Assembly: GCA_903926695.1 (NCBI GenBank)
Contig: CAIYKK010000455.1
Span: forward strand, 1 to 12,657
From: an uncultured Burkholderiales bacterium
GTDB taxonomy: Bacteria; Pseudomonadota; Gammaproteobacteria; Burkholderiales; Burkholderiaceae_C
Direction: 5' to 3'
DNA: 12,657 nucleotides
The position numbers and the translations under genes were made by a program. The notes beneath the pieces were generated by a model. It did not search any database and was not told the origin of the DNA. It saw nothing but the letters and a program-made list of their open reading frames with translations. This document shows, piece after piece, positions 1 through 12,657 of the stretch. Each line of letters opens with the position of its first letter. Positions within the stretch are counted from its first letter, which is position 1.

Positions 1-981
1 CTCCTGTGTCTGATGCGCTTCGTAGGCTTCATGCGCTTGGTCAGCCTCGTTCGCTTCGCGGTTCAGGCTGGCGTCGCCGCCATCGCCGCCATCGCCGGGC
101 GCTCCAGCGGCGGCAGGCAACAGGCGAAAGGTCAGCAGCGTCGGCTTGAACGAGGGACTGAGTTCAAAATAATCCGCGTGCTGGCGCAAAAACTCCGTCG
201 ATCTTGTGACGCGCTTGTCAAAAAGTCCGTGCCGCTCCAGCACCGGCACAACGTGGCACAGGTGCTGCGGGCGCTGACGCAGACCGGGCACAACGTTCAA
301 AATACGCACCACCTCGTCGGGCAAATCGGCATCGGACACCAGAGGCGCTTGCGGCGGCGCGGCAGGCGGGCGGTACGCGGGCCGTACAGCGGAGACAAAA
401 CTGGCACCAGCACCAGCACCAGCACCAGCACCGACACCGGCACCAGAGCCAGCACCACCGCCAGCCCCAATATCAGCACTACCGCCCCAGGCGGACGGCA
501 TCACCGGCCGCAGTGGCACGGGCGCAGGCGCAAACACCGGCGCCGGAAAGCACTTCACGCGGTCGTAATAGGTTTCAGCGTCCCGAAACACAATGTTTTC
601 AATCGAAAAACACCACACTTCGCAGCCCCACTCGCGCAGGCGCGCGGCCAACGGGGCAAAGTCGGCATCGCCCGAGGCAATCGCAAACAGCCGAATCCCC
701 TGCTGAAAATGCAGCGCGACCGCATCGACGATCAGGGCGGCGTCGGTGGTGTTTTTCTCCAGCGACAAATTGGGAAAGGTGCGCGTGCCTAAATAACGCC
801 ACACTGACCATAGCGACTGCAGGCGCGGCGCGGCGCCGTAGGCGTTGCACACGCTGATTCGGCCCGCATAGGCTTGAAACTCCTTCCACGCCGTGTCGAT
901 GGCATAAGGGTCGGCAAAATTGTCCGCGTCAATCAGCAGGGCCGCCTGCTGCAGGCCGTGTACTCTGGGTAAGGCGTTCAT
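1..981 (-). CDS. NYN-domain (LabA/DUF88-like) putative RNase with LOTUS-like C-terminus, 3'-truncated by window edge
   Basis: The frame is open for 327 codons from the ATG at 981 to the window edge without a stop, so the C-terminus is missing. Residues about 12-145 look like a NYN/PIN-like nuclease domain: LLIDADNF (15-22) supplies the first acidic residues, TDAALIVDA (79-87) the middle aspartates, and [11 protein letters not shown] (101-111) the SGDxDF motif. A Gly/Ala-rich linker (about 166-194) follows. Residues about 217-278 resemble an OST-HTH/LOTUS RNA-binding module ending in [13 protein letters not shown]. The tail is rich in Glu, Ala and His. NYN proteins are known or predicted metal-dependent RNases, and the substrate here is unknown. 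The ATG overlaps the pyrC stop as ATGA, so translation is probably coupled to pyrC. The family call is confident; the function is inferred. Confidence 0.85.
404..433. repeat. Hexanucleotide tandem repeat in the NYN gene linker
   Basis: The plus strand reads as repeated AGCACC units, four perfect and flanked by degenerate GGCACC/GACACC units. They encode alternating Gly-Ala in the linker between the NYN and LOTUS-like domains. Because the unit is 6 bp, slippage would change linker length without shifting the frame. Confidence 0.7.
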
Positions 982-2033
982 GCCGTTTGCAGTTTCCATG
1001 AGAGTGCCTCGCCGCTGCGCAGGGGTTTGAGTTCAGCGCCGCCAAAAGCAAAACTTTCGGGCGGCGTCCAGCTTTCTTTGTTCAAAGTGATGCTGCCGCT
1101 GTTGCGCGGCAGGCCGTAGAAATCAGCGCCGTTGAAGCTGGCAAAGGCCTCCAATTTATCGAGTGCGCCCGCGTTGTCAAATGCTTCGGCGTACAGCTCC
1201 ATCGCCGCATGTGCGGTGTAGCAGCCGGCGCAGCCGCTGGCGTGTTCTTTCAGATGCGCCGGATGCGGGGCGCTGTCAGTGCCGAGGAAAAAGCGCGCAT
1301 TGCCGGAAATCGCCGCCTGCACCAGCGCAAGGCGGTGGGTTTCGCGCTTCAAGACCGGCAGGCAGTAAAAATGCGGGCGGATGCCGCCGGTGAAGATGGC
1401 GTTGCGGTTGTAGAGCAGATGGTGCGCGGTCAGCGTCGCGCCGAGAAAACGGTCGGCTTCGGCGACGTACTGCGCGGCTTCTTGGGTCGTGATGTGCTCA
1501 AAGACGATTTTCAGCTCGGGAAAATCGCGCCGCAGCGGGATCAGTTGCGTGTCGATGAACACCGCTTCGCGGTCGAACAGGTCGATGTCGGGCGCGGTGA
1601 CTTCGCCATGCACCAAGAGCAGCAGGCCTTCGCGCTGCATCGCCTCTAACGTAGCGTAGGTTTTGCGAATGTCGGTCACGCCCGCGTCGCTGTTGGTGGT
1701 CGCGCCAGCGGGGTACAGCTTGACGGCGACCACGCCCGCGTCCTTGGCGCGCTTGATTTCGTCGGCGGCGAGGTTGTCGGTTAAATACAGCGTCATCAGC
1801 GGCTCGAACGCCACGCCTTGGGGCACGGCGGCCTGGATGCGCGTTTTATAAGCCAGCGCCTGCGCGGCGGTGGTCACGGGCGGGCGCAGGTTCGGCATGA
1901 TGATGGCGCGGCCAAACTGCGCCGCCGTGTGCGGCACGACGGTTTGCAGCGCGTCGCCGTCGCGCACATGCAGGTGCCAGTCGTCCGGGCGGGTGAGGGT
2001 GAGGGAAACAGGATTCAAGGTGGCTGAAGTCAT
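978..2033 (-). CDS. pyrC: Dihydroorotase (class II, PyrC)
   Basis: Catalyses the reversible cyclisation of N-carbamoyl-L-aspartate to dihydroorotate, the third step of de novo pyrimidine synthesis, in the cytosol. From the ATG at 2033 it has 351 residues, close to E. coli PyrC. The zinc-site residues are visible: HLHVRD (20-25, the HxH pair), the lysine to be carboxylated in [12 protein letters not shown], the histidines in LVHGEVT and FEHITT, and the aspartate in LGTDSAPH. The substrate-binding [11 protein letters not shown] segment is also present. A GTG at 2066 would add 11 residues, but conserved homology begins with RPDDWHLH just after the ATG, so I prefer 2033. There is no convincing Shine-Dalgarno before it. 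Its TGA overlaps the start of the NYN gene by 4 nt. The upstream gap to the PPTase gene is 135 bp and holds no recognisable gene. Confidence 0.97.
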
Positions 2034-2041
2034 GGGGCTGA

Positions 2042-2047
2042 ATTGTC
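2042..2047 (-). promoter_or_regulatory. Possible extended -10 element of pyrC (leaderless or very short leader)
   Basis: On the minus strand TGCGACAAT occurs 8 nt before the chosen pyrC ATG. GACAAT matches 4 of 6 bases of TATAAT and carries the TG of an extended -10. No good -35 is present at 17 bp. If it is used, transcription would start at or within a base or two of the ATG, fitting the absence of a ribosome binding site. This is weak evidence. Confidence 0.3.
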
Positions 2048-2168
2048 GCACCGGTAGCCGCGCCACTGCAGGGCGCAGGGCGAGCTGGCACGCATCACCC
2101 TGGCGGTGCGACTCTGGCGCAAGCGCGAGCGGGGCTTGGCCAATGACGCGGCGCTGGCCCGGCCACCG

Positions 2169-2892
2169 TCACGCGGGCCACGGCGCGCACAGGTTCAGCC
2201 AGACCTGCGCGTCGCGGCGCGACACGGCCAGCGCCGCCCGCACGCCGGGCGTGAGCATCAAATCCAGAAACGTCCAGCCCGCCAGCGGCAAACCGTTGCG
2301 CGAAGCGCGCCAGCGGCTCTCGCGCTGGCGGTCATCTTGCGTGGTGTAGCTGCTCGCCTGAAGCGACAGCCCGGTGCCGACGGCTTTCAACAGCGCTTCC
2401 TTGCGCGTCCAGGTGCTGAAAAACGCCGCCGCCGAGGCGGGCCGGGCGGCGTGCAGCGCCCGTTCTTCGGCCAACGAAAACACCTCCCGGCCCACGCTGG
2501 TGATGTCCACGCCGTCCATCAGCTGCTCAACATCGACGCCAACGCTGCAATCCCAGGCAAAAGCCAGCAAGGCCATGCTCTGCGTCTGCGACACGCTGAA
2601 AGCCAGCTCCGACTTCGGTGCCGCCGCCCGCTGCAGGCCCGGCTTGCCAAAGCCGTCAAAATGAAAACACAGCGATTCGGGCGCGCAGCCCAGATAACCC
2701 GCACTCAGCCAGCGCAGCATGCCGCGCCGGGCGATAAAACGGTCGCGGTGCGGCTCGCGCTGGTAGCGGCGGGCGCGCTCGTGCTCGTCCGGCGAGAGGG
2801 TATGAGCCAGCGCCGAACAGGCCGCCTGAACATCCGCGTCGGGCAGCACCCAGACCTGAACGGTGCCGGGCAGAAGCGGCAGGCAGGGCGGA

Positions 2893-2912
<20 letters not shown>
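2169..2912 (-). CDS. Sfp/Gsp-type 4'-phosphopantetheinyl transferase
   Basis: Transfers the phosphopantetheine arm of CoA to a serine of carrier domains. The 247-residue length is typical of Sfp-type enzymes. Visible motifs are GFGKPGL (87-93), FSVSQTQ (105-111), the metal-binding GVDVE (125-129, Asp127 and Glu129) and FSTWTRKEALLKAVGTGL (165-182, with the catalytic Lys-Glu pair). In most relatives the second motif reads SH; here Gln109 replaces the histidine that contacts CoA in Sfp. The gene starts inside the last codons of the ligase-carrier-thioesterase gene (20 nt overlap) and lacks a clear ribosome binding site, so it is probably translationally coupled. The obvious substrate is the carrier domain of that neighbour (Ser751), an inference from context. 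Fatty-acid ACP is normally served by AcpS. Confidence 0.92.
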
Positions 2913-6102
<3,190 letters not shown>

Positions 6103-6374: not shown

Positions 6375-7118
<744 letters not shown>

Positions 7119-8646: not shown

Positions 8647-9546
8647 TTATTTCTTGGCGTAGTCTTCCATTGGCTTGTCGTTCGGCGTGGCCCAGGCGGC
8701 TTTGGTGCTTTCGCTCACGGCCAGGCCGACGCGGGTGTTTTTAGGCGGAATTGGCTGCAGGAACCACTTGTCCCACAGCTTGGCGAGTTCGCCGCTCTTG
8801 ATCATCGCCTTGATGGTGTCGTCGCCGATTTTTTTCAGCGCGGCATCGTCCTTGCGCACCATGATGGCAATCGGCTCGACGCTGAGCACTTCGCCCGCAA
8901 TCTTGAAATCCGCCGGATTCTTGGACGAGGCGATGTTGCCCGCCAGAATCGAGCCGTCCATCACAAACGCGTCGGCGCGGCCCGACTCCAGCAGCAAAAA
9001 GCTGTCCGAGTGATCTTTGCCGTAAACCTCCTTGAAGTCGATGCCGTTGGCGCGCTCGTTTTTGCGCAGCGTCTGCACCGAGGTCGTGCCCGTCGTGGTG
9101 GCGACGTTTTTGCCATCGAGCTGCTTGATTGAGGTGATGCCCGAATTGGCCTTGACCGCCATGCGCACTTCTTCGACAAACGTGGTCACGAGGAAAGACA
9201 CGTCTTTGGCGCGGGTGGCGTTGTTGGTGGTCGAGCCGCATTCGATATCGACGGTGCCGTTTTGCACCAGCGGAATGCGGTTTTGCGAGGTCACGGGCTG
9301 GTACTTGACTTCGAGCTTTTTGCCCACGGCTTTTTCCAGATTGGCGATGACGCGCTGGCAGATTTCAACGTGGTAGCCGACGTATTTGCCGTCACCCAGC
9401 GTGTAAGACAGCGCGCCCGACGAATCGCGCACGCCCATCGTCACCATGCCGGAGGCCTTGGCCTTGGCGACGGTGTCGGTGGCCTGCGCAAAAGCCGCGC
9501 CCGAAGCGAGCAGCGCGGCAGACAAGGCGATGAGCTTGAGTTTCAT
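8647..9546 (-). CDS. gltI: Periplasmic glutamate/aspartate-binding protein
   Basis: The solute-binding protein (SBP_bac_3 family) that captures acidic amino acids in the periplasm and delivers them to GltJK. 299 residues from the ATG at 9546, with AGGAG 8 nt upstream; the frame stays open to 9585, but those 13 residues lack signal-peptide features. Residues 1-20 form a signal peptide with the cleavage motif AFA before Gln21. Signature stretches strongly recall E. coli GltI: TSQNRIPLVQNG, ECGSTTNN, GKDHSDSFLLLESGRADAF, MDGSILAG and DKWFLQPIPPKNT. It is the first gene of the transporter operon and is followed by a strong terminator. Confidence 0.96.
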   Translation of the reverse strand: MKLKLIALSAALLASGAAFAQATDTVAKAKASGMVTMGVRDSSGALSYTLGDGKYVGYHVEICQRVIANLEKAVGKKLEVKYQPVTSQNRIPLVQNGTVDIECGSTTNNATRAKDVSFLVTTFVEEVRMAVKANSGITSIKQLDGKNVATTTGTTSVQTLRKNERANGIDFKEVYGKDHSDSFLLLESGRADAFVMDGSILAGNIASSKNPADFKIAGEVLSVEPIAIMVRKDDAALKKIGDDTIKAMIKSGELAKLWDKWFLQPIPPKNTRVGLAVSESTKAAWATPNDKPMEDYAKK

Positions 9547-9798: not shown

Positions 9799-10743
9799 CT
9801 AGCGCACGGCGGGCGCGCGGGCCGCGCTGGCCCCAGCCTGGGCTTGCAAATACATCCACAGCGCTTGCGCCGGGGTTTTGGCGGCGTCGCGCCCGGTGGG
9901 GCGTTCGCGGTACAGGCGCACGTCCAGCGTCATTTCCAAGCCCGCTCCGGCGCGGACCAGTTTTTTCGAGCGCAGCTCTTTTTTCACCGCGCTGAGGGGC
10001 AAAAACGCCACGCCGTGGCCTTCGAGCGCCATTGCTTTCAGTCCCTCGGCCATGTCGGTTTCGTACACCCGGTCGAGGTGAATGGCGGTGGCCGACTGCT
10101 TGAGAATCAGCTCGACCACGCGCCCAAGGTAAGCGCCCGGCGCGTAGCCCAGATACGGCAGCGGCTGGCCGATGCGCCCCGGCAGGGCAAATTCAGGCTT
10201 TCCGGCGGCGTTGGCGCGGCACAGCGGCGCGAGCACCTCGCGCCCGAGCGAAACCATTTCGTAGCGCCCCGGATCGAGCTGAAACGGCTGGGAATCGTGG
10301 TGATACGACAGCAGCAGGTCGCAGCTGCCCTCGACCAGACGCAGCACGGCGTCATGCACATTGAGCGCGATCAGGCGGCTTTTGACCGGGCCGAACTTTT
10401 CGCGCAGGCTGCTGATCCAGGCCGGAAAAAACGTGAACGCCAGCGTGTGCGGCACGGCAAACTCGATGAAATCCTGCCCCGCCGCCGTGTGGCTGCGCAG
10501 CATGGCGCGGGTCGATTGCAGGCTCTGAAGCGTGTCCAGCGACTGGCTGTACAGCGTCTGGCCCGCTGGCGTCAGGCGCGTGGGGTACGAACTGCGGTCC
10601 ACCAGATCGGTGCCCGCCCAGGCTTCAAGCGCCTGAATGCGCCGCGAAAACGCAGGCTGCGTGACGTGGCGAAGCTGGGCCGAACGGCTGAAACTGCGCG
10701 TTTCAGCGAGCGAGACAAAATCTTCCAGCCATTTGGTTTCCAT
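9799..10743 (-). CDS. LysR-family transcriptional regulator, HypT/YjiE-like
   Basis: 314 residues. An N-terminal winged helix-turn-helix spans about residues 4-62, including SFSRSAQLRHVTQPAFSRRI, followed by a linker helix and a periplasmic-binding-like effector domain (about 92-295). The opening METKWLEDF and the QPAFSRRIQALE segment closely recall E. coli YjiE/HypT, a regulator activated by hypochlorite through methionine oxidation. Similarity in the effector half (GYAPGAYLGRVV, LEGHGVAFLPLSAV) supports the same subfamily. Whether it senses oxidants here or regulates gltIJKL is inferred only from adjacency; it is transcribed in the same direction as gltI, unlike most divergent LysR pairs. 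Start at 10743 has no good ribosome binding site. In the ancestral arrangement it probably followed hypE directly (about 35 nt gap). Confidence 0.88.
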   Translation of the reverse strand: METKWLEDFVSLAETRSFSRSAQLRHVTQPAFSRRIQALEAWAGTDLVDRSSYPTRLTPAGQTLYSQSLDTLQSLQSTRAMLRSHTAAGQDFIEFAVPHTLAFTFFPAWISSLREKFGPVKSRLIALNVHDAVLRLVEGSCDLLLSYHHDSQPFQLDPGRYEMVSLGREVLAPLCRANAAGKPEFALPGRIGQPLPYLGYAPGAYLGRVVELILKQSATAIHLDRVYETDMAEGLKAMALEGHGVAFLPLSAVKKELRSKKLVRAGAGLEMTLDVRLYRERPTGRDAAKTPAQALWMYLQAQAGASAARAPAVR

Positions 10744-10777
10744 CGGCTGATTATCGGGTCAGCCGTGGAGCGCGCGC

Positions 10778-10889
10778 CTCAGCAAATACGCGGCAATTGC
10801 TCGCCGCTGAGCCAGTCCACCACGCGCCGCCCACCAAAGCGCGTCGTCATCTGCACGAAATGATGCGCGTCCTCGGTCACGGTGCCGAT
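10778..10889 (-). repeat. Direct repeat copy A (duplicated hypE 3' end)
   Basis: Aligns without gaps to 11628-11739, offset 850 bp, with 105 of 112 identical bases. The seven differences (10794, 10824, 10833, 10851, 10857, 10863, 10872) all fall on third codon positions in the hypE frame. Similarity begins one base beyond the hypE stop and ends abruptly at 10889. Confidence 0.97.
10779..10889 (-). pseudogene. Truncated second hypE 3' end (last 36 codons)
   Basis: This fragment still encodes the final 36 residues of HypE, including VVDWLSGEQLPRIC and the TGA stop, with protein sequence identical to the intact gene at 11629. It has no start codon and no upstream hypE sequence; the match breaks off at 10889, after which unrelated sequence leads into the orphan gene. 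Because all nucleotide differences are synonymous, it diverged while part of a working gene. It is best read as the remnant of the 3' end of a former resident hypE that directly preceded lysR. It is not expected to be translated. Confidence 0.95.
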
Positions 10890-10908
10890 AGCGCGGTGAC
10901 TTTGATTT

Positions 10909-11565
10909 TTAGTGTCTGGCATAAGTCACAGGAGGTAAGCAGTCCGAAAACTCTTGCTGGAGCTTTGTCAGTTCACCTTTAGCTCCCCCGAAAGGCATAA
11001 AAATGACGTTTAAAGCCATGATGAGGAAACCATTGCTGTTGAGCATCAGGTTGACTTGTTGTTGCTCAGGAATGTCCACCAGCGCATGGGTAACAGAGTA
11101 AATTCCGCCGTGGACAAAGGAGTGCATTGCCTTGATAGTGGCATCGTTGAACTCCTGCAGCATTTTGTAGATATGGGCGGGGTGATGCTTTTTGATGTCT
11201 TCCAAGAGCTCTTTGATCGAAAGCTGATGTGCCGTTTCTTTGACCTCTGCCGTTGGAGGCGGTGTAAGAAAACGCTCTACCCATGCATCACTGGCTCCTT
11301 GGACCGCCCAGATAGCTTTGAGCAGGTTTTCAAAAGCTGGACGAATCAAGGTCATGGCTGCAAGCGAATGCCCAGTCACCAACAGCATGCACTGGCCGTG
11401 AACTAATTCCCGGACCCCGCGACAAAAGCCTGCTATGGCTATTTCTCGCTTCCCTTCAGGAGGTGGAAGTACATCCCAAATTTCGTCGAGAACAGCATGG
11501 AATTCCATGCATCTCAGGAGCTTTTTTTCTAAGGGGGTCTGTTCTTCGCTGTCGTTTAGGTACAT
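10909..11565 (-). CDS. Orphan protein of unknown function, probably all-helical
   Basis: 218 residues from the ATG at 11565 to a TAA at 10909. I do not recognise it with certainty. The central part, GHSLAAMTLIRPAFENLLKA (about 65-84), and the later MHSFVHGGIYSVTHAL recall a group of poorly characterised helical proteins with an Arg-Pro-rich helix and a (T/V)HGG motif (DUF5677/DUF6988-like); this is from memory and tentative. There are no signal peptide or transmembrane segments. There is no Shine-Dalgarno before the ATG. The frame stays open upstream to the hypE stop, in the same frame as hypE, but without another ATG or GTG. Lower GC and looser codon use than the neighbours fit recent acquisition. 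A TACAAT at 11609-11614 (minus strand) could be a -10 with no good -35. Confidence 0.75.
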   Translation of the reverse strand: MYLNDSEEQTPLEKKLLRCMEFHAVLDEIWDVLPPPEGKREIAIAGFCRGVRELVHGQCMLLVTGHSLAAMTLIRPAFENLLKAIWAVQGASDAWVERFLTPPPTAEVKETAHQLSIKELLEDIKKHHPAHIYKMLQEFNDATIKAMHSFVHGGIYSVTHALVDIPEQQQVNLMLNSNGFLIMALNVIFMPFGGAKGELTKLQQEFSDCLPPVTYARH

Positions 11566-11608
11566 GGCCGAGATGCTGATGGAATTTGACTGTTTGAACG
11601 ATGAATCA

Positions 11609-11614
11609 ATTGTA
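11609..11614 (-). promoter_or_regulatory. Possible -10 element of the orphan gene
   Basis: TACAAT on the minus strand matches 5 of 6 consensus bases and lies about 43 nt before the orphan-gene ATG. Any -35 would fall in the end of hypE and is poor (3 of 6). The gene may instead rely on read-through from hypE. Confidence 0.25.
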
Positions 11615-11627
11615 GGAATGGGCCAGT

Positions 11628-11739
11628 CTCAGCAAATACGCGGTAATTGCTCGCCGCTGAGCCAGTCCACCACTCGCCGCCCGCCAAAGCGCGTCGTCAT
11701 TTGCACAAAATGGTGCGCGTCTTCGGTCACGGTGCCGAT
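11628..11739 (-). repeat. Direct repeat copy B (3' end of the intact hypE)
   Basis: Partner of the repeat at 10778-10889. It covers the last 36 codons and stop of the intact gene plus one base. Beyond 11739 the two sequences cease to match. Confidence 0.97.
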
Positions 11740-12657
11740 GCGGGCGGCGGCTTGTCCCAGCGGGTGATTTCGCATCGCGGCCAGCACCGCGTCGGCGGCT
11801 TCGGGCGCGCAAATAGCAATCAGCTTGCCCTCATTGGCAATGTAAAGCGGGTCCAGCCCCAGCAGTTCGCAGGCGGCTTCCACCTGCGGCAACACCGGAA
11901 TCGCCGCCTCGTCGAGCAGCATGCCCGCGCCGGACTGGCGGGCGATTTCGTTCAGCGTGGTGGCCAGGCCGCCGCGTGTCGGGTCGCGCAGCACGCGCAC
12001 GCCGCCGGGCGCGGCTTGCAGCATGGCAGCCACCAGCGTGTGCAGCGCGGCGGTGTCCGATTCAATCGTGGTTTCAAACTCCAGCGATTCGCGCTGCGAC
12101 AGCACGGCCACGCCGTGTTCGCCGATGGTGCCCGACAGCAGCACCACGTCGCCGGACCGCGCATTACTGCCCGCAATATCGACGCCGGGCGCGACCACGC
12201 CCAGGCCCGTCGTGCTGATAAACACGCCATCGCCCTTGCCGCGCTCGACGACTTTGGTGTCGCCGGTGATGACCGGCACGCCCGCCTCACGCGCCGCCCG
12301 CGCCATCGAGTCCACGATGCGTTTCAAATCCGCCAGCGGGAAGCCTTCTTCCAGAATAAAACTGGCCGTCAAATACAGCGGCTGCGCGCCGGACATGGCT
12401 ACGTCGTTCACCGTGCCATGCACGCTCAGGCAGCCCACATCGCCGCCGGGGAAAAACAGCGGCGACACCACATGGCCGTCAGTCGCCATCACCAGCCGGG
12501 CGCCGGGCGGCAGCGGCGGCGGCGCGAACACCGCGCCGTCATTGCCCTGGCGCAGGTAGTCGTTGTCAAAGGCGGCCAGAAACAGCTCTTCAATTAGTTG
12601 CGCGGCAGCGCGCCCGCCCGCGCCGTGGCCCATGTCGATGCAGCCGTGGCGAATGTC
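11629..12657 (-). CDS. hypE: HypE, [NiFe]-hydrogenase maturation carbamoyl dehydratase, 5'-truncated by window edge
   Basis: HypE accepts a carbamoyl group from HypF on its C-terminal cysteine, dehydrates it with ATP to a thiocyanate, and passes the cyanide to iron on the HypC-HypD complex. 342 residues are visible, and the frame continues past the right edge, so only a short N-terminus is missing. Features in order: MGHGAGGRAAAQLIEELFL near the N-terminus, ATDGHVVSPLFFPGGDVG with VHGTVNDVAMSGAQP (ATP and Mg site of the PurM/SelD fold), TGDTKVVERGKGDG, LRDPTRGGLATTLNE, ANEGKL and the terminal PRIC with the acceptor cysteine. SelD is a homologue, but the PRIC tail and FPGGD segment identify HypE. 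Its last 36 codons are duplicated at 10779-10889, and the gene itself may be a recombinant of donor and resident sequence. Confidence 0.96.
   Translation of the reverse strand, partial: DIRHGCIDMGHGAGGRAAAQLIEELFLAAFDNDYLRQGNDGAVFAPPPLPPGARLVMATDGHVVSPLFFPGGDVGCLSVHGTVNDVAMSGAQPLYLTASFILEEGFPLADLKRIVDSMARAAREAGVPVITGDTKVVERGKGDGVFISTTGLGVVAPGVDIAGSNARSGDVVLLSGTIGEHGVAVLSQRESLEFETTIESDTAALHTLVAAMLQAAPGGVRVLRDPTRGGLATTLNEIARQSGAGMLLDEAAIPVLPQVEAACELLGLDPLYIANEGKLIAICAPEAADAVLAAMRNHPLGQAAARIGTVTEDAHHFVQMTTRFGGRRVVDWLSGEQLPRIC

Follow-up and report, generated by a model that had tools for sequence, protein, structure and literature searches.

The 3′ end of hypE in an uncultured Burkholderiales bacterium occurs twice, on either side of a foreign gene, and we consider it probable (roughly 60%) that the structure is the scar of an allele displacement in which incoming DNA was joined by homologous recombination at one end and by illegitimate recombination at the other. 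The route by which a small gene insertion reached its bacterial host has often left no trace. When an orphan gene end differs from the intact gene at synonymous sites alone, this suggests a recent joining of two alleles that both worked.

In the ancestor the hyp operon would have ended in one hypE allele (N), with lysR beside it. DNA arriving from a close relative would have brought a second allele (F), followed by a foreign DUF6988 gene. A homologous crossover within hypE or upstream of it would have taken in one end of this DNA; the other end, just past DUF6988, would have been joined without homology to codon 299 (visible frame) of the resident hypE, where the repeat begins. The outcome would be an intact hypE ending in F, a same-direction passenger possibly read through from the operon, and the orphan end of N. 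We infer the donor, the point of the homologous crossover and the single event.

Results

The window, by which we mean the whole stretch of 12,657 bp analyzed, is contig C455 of a 3.25-Mb genome and contains two direct repeats of 112 bp that are 94% identical and spaced 850 bp start to start (Table 1). The pair scores 171 bits; when the window was randomly resampled 40 times (first order), no direct repeat scored above 33.7 bits. Each copy consists of the last 36 codons of hypE (299–334 of the visible frame), TGA and one further base; both translate to IGTVTEDAHHFVQMTTRFGGRRVVDWLSGEQLPRIC followed by the stop, and their homology ends after TGAG on one side and at ATCGGC on the other. Along the minus strand the order is hypE (from the contig end), 62 bp, a 218-aa gene, 19 bp, the orphan hypE end, lysR, an ABC transporter block and further genes. 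The intact gene encodes HypE (TIGR02124 equivalog, 445 bits, cut-off 251.6) with the C-terminus PRIC, the role of which in HypE is treated in the available text of PMC12130793. Because the frame runs off the contig and most homologues are listed at about 350 aa, its start probably lies off the contig; the open frame of hypE in a sister genome, G042, goes on upstream.

Table 1 Features of the hypE region in the window and of the second scar in G042
Feature	Position	Strand	Basis and remarks
hypE, functional copy	11629..12633	-	334 aa visible, ending in the PRIC cysteine; TIGR02124, homologue lengths, G042 frame
Repeat copy F, 3′ end of functional hypE	11628..11739	-	Repeat search, alignment
62-bp spacer, repeat to DUF6988 start codon	11566..11627	-	Unlike the post-hypE sequence in 7 relatives compared
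DUF6988/PDC-S52 solo candidate anti-phage gene, 218 aa	10909..11565	-	Pfam PF22491, PADLOC PDLC05034, GC
19-bp spacer, DUF6988 stop to orphan hypE end	10890..10908	-	Non-homologous joint at 10889/10890
Repeat copy N, orphan hypE end (36 codons and stop), apparently of another allele	10778..10889	-	Repeat search, alignment, synonymous pattern
6 bases past repeat N	10772..10777	-	Carry on homology to G042 downstream of hypE, TGAGGCGCGC in both
lysR	9799..10743	-	Syntenic in relatives together with the ABC transporter block, at a site away from hypE; homology to 9 relatives stops at 10743-10758
Decayed hypC and hypD start	L063 (G042:C54) 2485-2765		30-bp deletion and frameshift

The copies differ at seven sites (GAA/GAG, CAC/CAT, TTT/TTC, CAA/CAG, GGC/GGT, CGA/CGC and TTA/TTG), all of them synonymous third positions, and the orphan has neither a nonsynonymous change nor an indel. 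Repeat search and alignment thus bear out what the preliminary description of this DNA reported. It also put the chance of such a pattern at about 1 in 3^7 (2187), a figure that rests on the wrong null, since it treats both copies as free to change and the intact copy, being under selection, is expected to change synonymously. Under a model of duplication followed by neutral evolution of the orphan, the probability that all seven changes are synonymous is 0.0011–0.0034 for kappa of 1–5, or 0.013–0.023, and thus weaker evidence, if only the three orphan-specific changes are counted. Duplication followed by decay of a useless copy, already argued against in that description, is disfavored on either count. 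The improbability of an all-synonymous pattern under neutral drift since duplication indicates that orphan N belonged to a working hypE until recently.

The hypE end of G042 splits the seven differences, with three sites special to F, three special to N and one at which all three sequences differ, and eight sites unite F and N against it. Among 47 hypE tails, F and N are nearest each other with seven differences and the next nearest is G042, 12 from each; in the tree of these tails the three sequences form an unresolved fork. Being 12 differences from both copies, the G042 end is a poor yardstick between them. As F and N are mutual nearest relatives, both would come from one close lineage. The earlier proposal that both copies derive from working hypE genes of different lineages therefore keeps its first half, on the synonymous pattern, but the lineages can only have been close ones. 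Grouping of the two copies had been named beforehand as pointing to local duplication, and on that test the result went against the exchange. Duplication of the hypE end in place, with insertion of DUF6988 and subsequent independent change of both copies, would indeed account for the closeness of F and N and for the eight sites that group them, but it would have to have spared the orphan any nonsynonymous change or indel, at the probabilities just given, and we regard it as very improbable. GC3 is 0.70 in F, 0.78 in N and 0.82 in the hypE body, and the last two hypE windows are also low (0.70 and 0.73), values based on too few codons to use.

The flanks suggest which end is the resident one. 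A 118-bp match joins G042 6606–6723 to window 10889–10772, and downstream of hypE the bases TGAGGCGCGC are common to N and G042 and absent after F. Since N keeps these six further downstream bases and F does not, N looks like the resident hypE end and F like the end that came in with the gene. Homology of N to hypE ends at 10889 and the bases beyond are unlike the hypE body, as at a joint made without homology; F runs on into the full hypE.

Such a joint could also be produced by a metagenome assembly that fused two strains, and the genome is in 751 contigs, 86% complete and 4.5% contaminated, with a contig end inside hypE. However, apart from the repeat itself nothing else in the assembly matches the joint at 10889/10890, a protein listing gives three member sequences on six contigs for the DUF6988 protein, and another assembly, G042, contains a scar of the same kind. 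A chimera is therefore highly unlikely in our judgment.

On the far side of the orphan, lysR is present in all 10 genomes searched, including that of the window. In the nine others, the stretch displayed upstream of lysR is something other than hypE, and their homology to the window stops no more than 15 bp from the lysR start. An ancestor with hypE next to lysR was not found, lysR lying away from hypE in every one of the nine relatives where it was located. A donor with hypE followed by DUF6988 was likewise not found among family and order genomes, plasmids, phages, viral contigs and proteins, a search in which the neighbors of hypE were not checked at every match. Neither of the two kinds of relative that the preliminary description proposed to look for was found. 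Within the genus, hypE matches with E <1e-160 occur in 8 of 87 genomes, including that of the window, and nearly all others are weak.

A scan of the intact hypE for a recombination breakpoint, proposed at the same time, did not place the crossover. The maximum chi-square break between hypE of the window genome and of G042 has p = 0.047 over all sites but 0.36 at third positions. Breaks against G019 (p <0.001) do not single out F because a comparison of G042 with G019 shows them too; the break against G003 has p = 0.004 for the window genome and 0.13 for G042. Changes derived in the window genome amount to 25/1010 in hypE versus 25/1765 in hypF and hypD together (Fisher p = 0.053), which points weakly to donor sequence in the part of hypE before the repeat.

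Comparison with G042 argues for exchange of the operon as a whole. Identity to G042 is 96.3% for hypF, 91.2% for hypC (gaps counted), 96.5% for the hypD part and 93.5% for hypE, compared with 82–83% for lysR, the binding protein and both permeases, 92% for the ATPase and 87.5% for pyrC. The same hyp genes are 78–86% identical to those of G005, G003 and G019, which is similar to core. Given hyp genes at 91–96% against 82–83% in four of the six flanking genes, these identities indicate that the hyp operon has moved between species and that the operons of the window genome and G042 share a more recent exchange. The remaining hyp genes of the window genome are on contig C82, which ends in hypD, and we infer that C82 and C455 are adjacent. 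The ATPase gene of the ABC transporter (window 6375–7118), with its higher identity than its neighbors, looks like a separate recombination tract.

A second scar is found in the operon of G042 itself (L063), where the order is hypF, a small AT-rich gene, a copy of hypC with the first hypD codons, a DMP19 gene, a small gene and the working hypC–hypD–hypE. Over 247 gap-free columns the broken hypC is 87.9% identical to the working hypC of G042, 87.4% to that of the window genome and 88.7% to that of G005, and the two working genes are 96.8% identical to each other. At 26 sites both working genes agree against the broken copy, which has the state of G005, G003 and G019 at 12 of them; eight sites show the reverse and six are undecided. 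Because it is without the 12 derived states that both working alleles share, the broken hypC is most likely an older resident allele and not a local duplicate of the present gene. An earlier comparison, in which the remnant appeared nearer to G005 than the working copy of G042 is, with the copy of the window genome about equally near, is superseded by that over 247 columns. When 87 hyp loci from relatives were scanned, G042 alone had a hyp gene in a close partial copy; 15 further second matches to hypC are distant (27–39%) and were taken as paralogues. The homologous and illegitimate joining first proposed for the window is still the best reading, strengthened by the exchange of the operon and by the G042 scar, but neither its donor nor its hypE–lysR relative has come to light.

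Interrupted spacing, with a gap of >600 bp, is seen in relatives at 3 of 81 hypF–hypC, none of 79 hypC–hypD and 6 of 81 hypD–hypE junctions. In the window genome, about 2.8 kb of other sequence separates hypF from hypC (L233, G000:C82, ~930–3790). That insert includes 151 bp matching the 3′ end of the G042 DMP19 gene at 91% identity, and five frames scanned gave no Pfam match above cut-off. The foreign frames picked at hypF–hypC run in the direction of the operon, having been chosen by eye from lists with frames on both strands, and the DMP19 gene is the only one of them above its Pfam cut-off.

The gene between the repeats in the window matches DUF6988 (PF22491, 125.1 bits, cut-off 27, residues 52–212) and PADLOC PDC-S52 (PDLC05034, 141 bits, residues 12–213). 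It has the same orientation as hypE and a GC content of 49%, compared with 59–67% for five other genes of the window. The available text of PMC13092281 names DUF6988 as newly implicated in defense, and the gene looks like a candidate anti-phage gene. In common with PDC-S52 single-gene defense candidates, the protein matches the profile over most of its length, but it stands apart from other DUF6988/PDC-S52 proteins, the closest of which is 46% identical, and defense is a candidate function for it. A search of 5.8 billion proteins gave three DUF6988 matches, its own included. Relatives are present in 32 of 299 family genomes (own included; best other 36%), in 9 of 399 order genomes (own included) and on 21 plasmid records (best 32%), with none in phages and viral contigs.

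Plasmids offer another route to the same final map. A circular DNA carrying hypE(F) and DUF6988 could have integrated in the manner of Campbell through one homologous crossover in hypE, followed by loss of everything between the end of DUF6988 and codon 299 of the second copy. Plasmid-borne hypE exists, with matches in 92 of 72,556 plasmid records, as do the plasmid-borne relatives of DUF6988 just mentioned. However, this route requires two events and has left no plasmid gene, and identity did not exceed 80.3% for any hypE-bearing plasmid found, so that we consider it unlikely.

Integrative elements that use the 3′ end of a gene restore that gene, leaving its end duplicated around the cargo and the frame kept. 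The window has the look of such an element, since the end of a gene is directly repeated on both sides of a cargo gene and the intact gene is in frame, and an element that brought its own hypE 3′ end and then lost all but one cargo gene had been offered as the alternative reading. Unlike such elements, the insert has no match to an integrase: of the three frames of at least 80 aa lying mostly between the repeats, one is DUF6988, and the other two run on the opposite strand and match nothing in Pfam. There is also no recurrence at hypE in the loci examined. Second hypE ends were sought in 80 named hyp loci, 87 genus genomes and 399 family genomes. All 80 named loci have exactly one hypE end over the stretch of up to 10 kb examined, and a clean orphan end occurs in the window genome only among the 399 (90 with a hypE-end match). 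The G042 scar, moreover, lies elsewhere, at hypC and the start of hypD, and is not a gene 3′ end. The element reading finds no support in these results and is, we think, highly unlikely.

With a single hypE end in every named locus, the hypE end is not a general insertion site. Two decayed orphan hypE ends lie away from an intact hypE, at L070 (G015:C36) 2762–2914, where the piece is 67% identical over 51 codons and has a stop inside the matched stretch, and at L180 (G276:C67) 8749–8928, where it is 42% identical. These remains suggest that the loss or exchange of a cluster can leave its hypE end in place. Two frames of G449, of 414 and 405 aa, match the hypE end and were taken as two full genes. 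As a general defense hotspot the region downstream of hypE was rejected, because the hsdR-like frame of G015 is not flush with hypE and was not counted. Long frames resembling a type I restriction system do begin ~2.5 kb downstream of hypE in L068 (G015:C68) and are absent there in G016, as judged by eye. Other self-repeats were listed, and four loci were inspected.

Flanking repeats of at least 54 bp are found at 7 of 29 other DUF6988 loci, six of them direct and one (L059) an inverted repeat of 160 bp. In six other family genomes (L039, L040, L044, L047, L049 and L050), DUF6988 lies between direct repeats ~2.2 kb apart that look by eye like parts of a single structured repeat. The idea that DUF6988 is an integron cassette was considered and set aside, with no obvious attC core by eye in the repeat copies inspected (10 of 12) and no Rfam match at the gathering score (six loci).

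Discussion

The mechanism that we favor for the window, displacement of a resident allele with one homologous and one illegitimate joint, has a precedent in homology-facilitated illegitimate recombination (HFIR; PMC3240628). In the available text of that source, HFIR likewise places foreign DNA beside a homologous segment with one joint made without homology, but its products have typically lost resident DNA and carry 3–10 bp of microhomology, and the event proposed here is read from sequence and not observed. HFIR has also been proposed for the T6SS immunity arrays of Vibrio cholerae (PMC5361080), in which, according to the part of that paper available, a module anchored by homology similarly pushes back the old 3′ end and leaves an orphan behind the new cargo. 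There the cargo consists of cognate immunity genes under obvious selection, whereas here a metabolic maturation operon is combined with an unrelated candidate defense gene. This kind of scar is thus already known, and with a candidate defense gene as passenger the window is a neat worked example rather than a surprise.

With two scars in one operon of two related species, a defense-type gene could have spread on a metabolic operon rather than on an integrase-bearing element. We suggest, tentatively and as a possibility that we would not yet favor, that exchanged operons act as integrase-free carriers, in which passengers including solo phage-defense genes ride between same-direction genes and leave readable scars of the alleles replaced, and that the hyp operon is such a carrier in this genus, with scars at hypE in one species and at hypC–hypD in a related one. 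Among the literature matches listed, in the parts of the sources available, nothing relevant appeared on hypE as an insertion site, which does not prove its absence from print, or on hydrogenase transfer in Polaromonas.

Elsewhere in the window, positions 2893–6102 encode a 1069-aa acetoacetate-CoA-ligase-like protein whose C-terminal part matches NRPS profiles (EntF), and a phosphopantetheinyl transferase gene (2169–2912) adjoins it.
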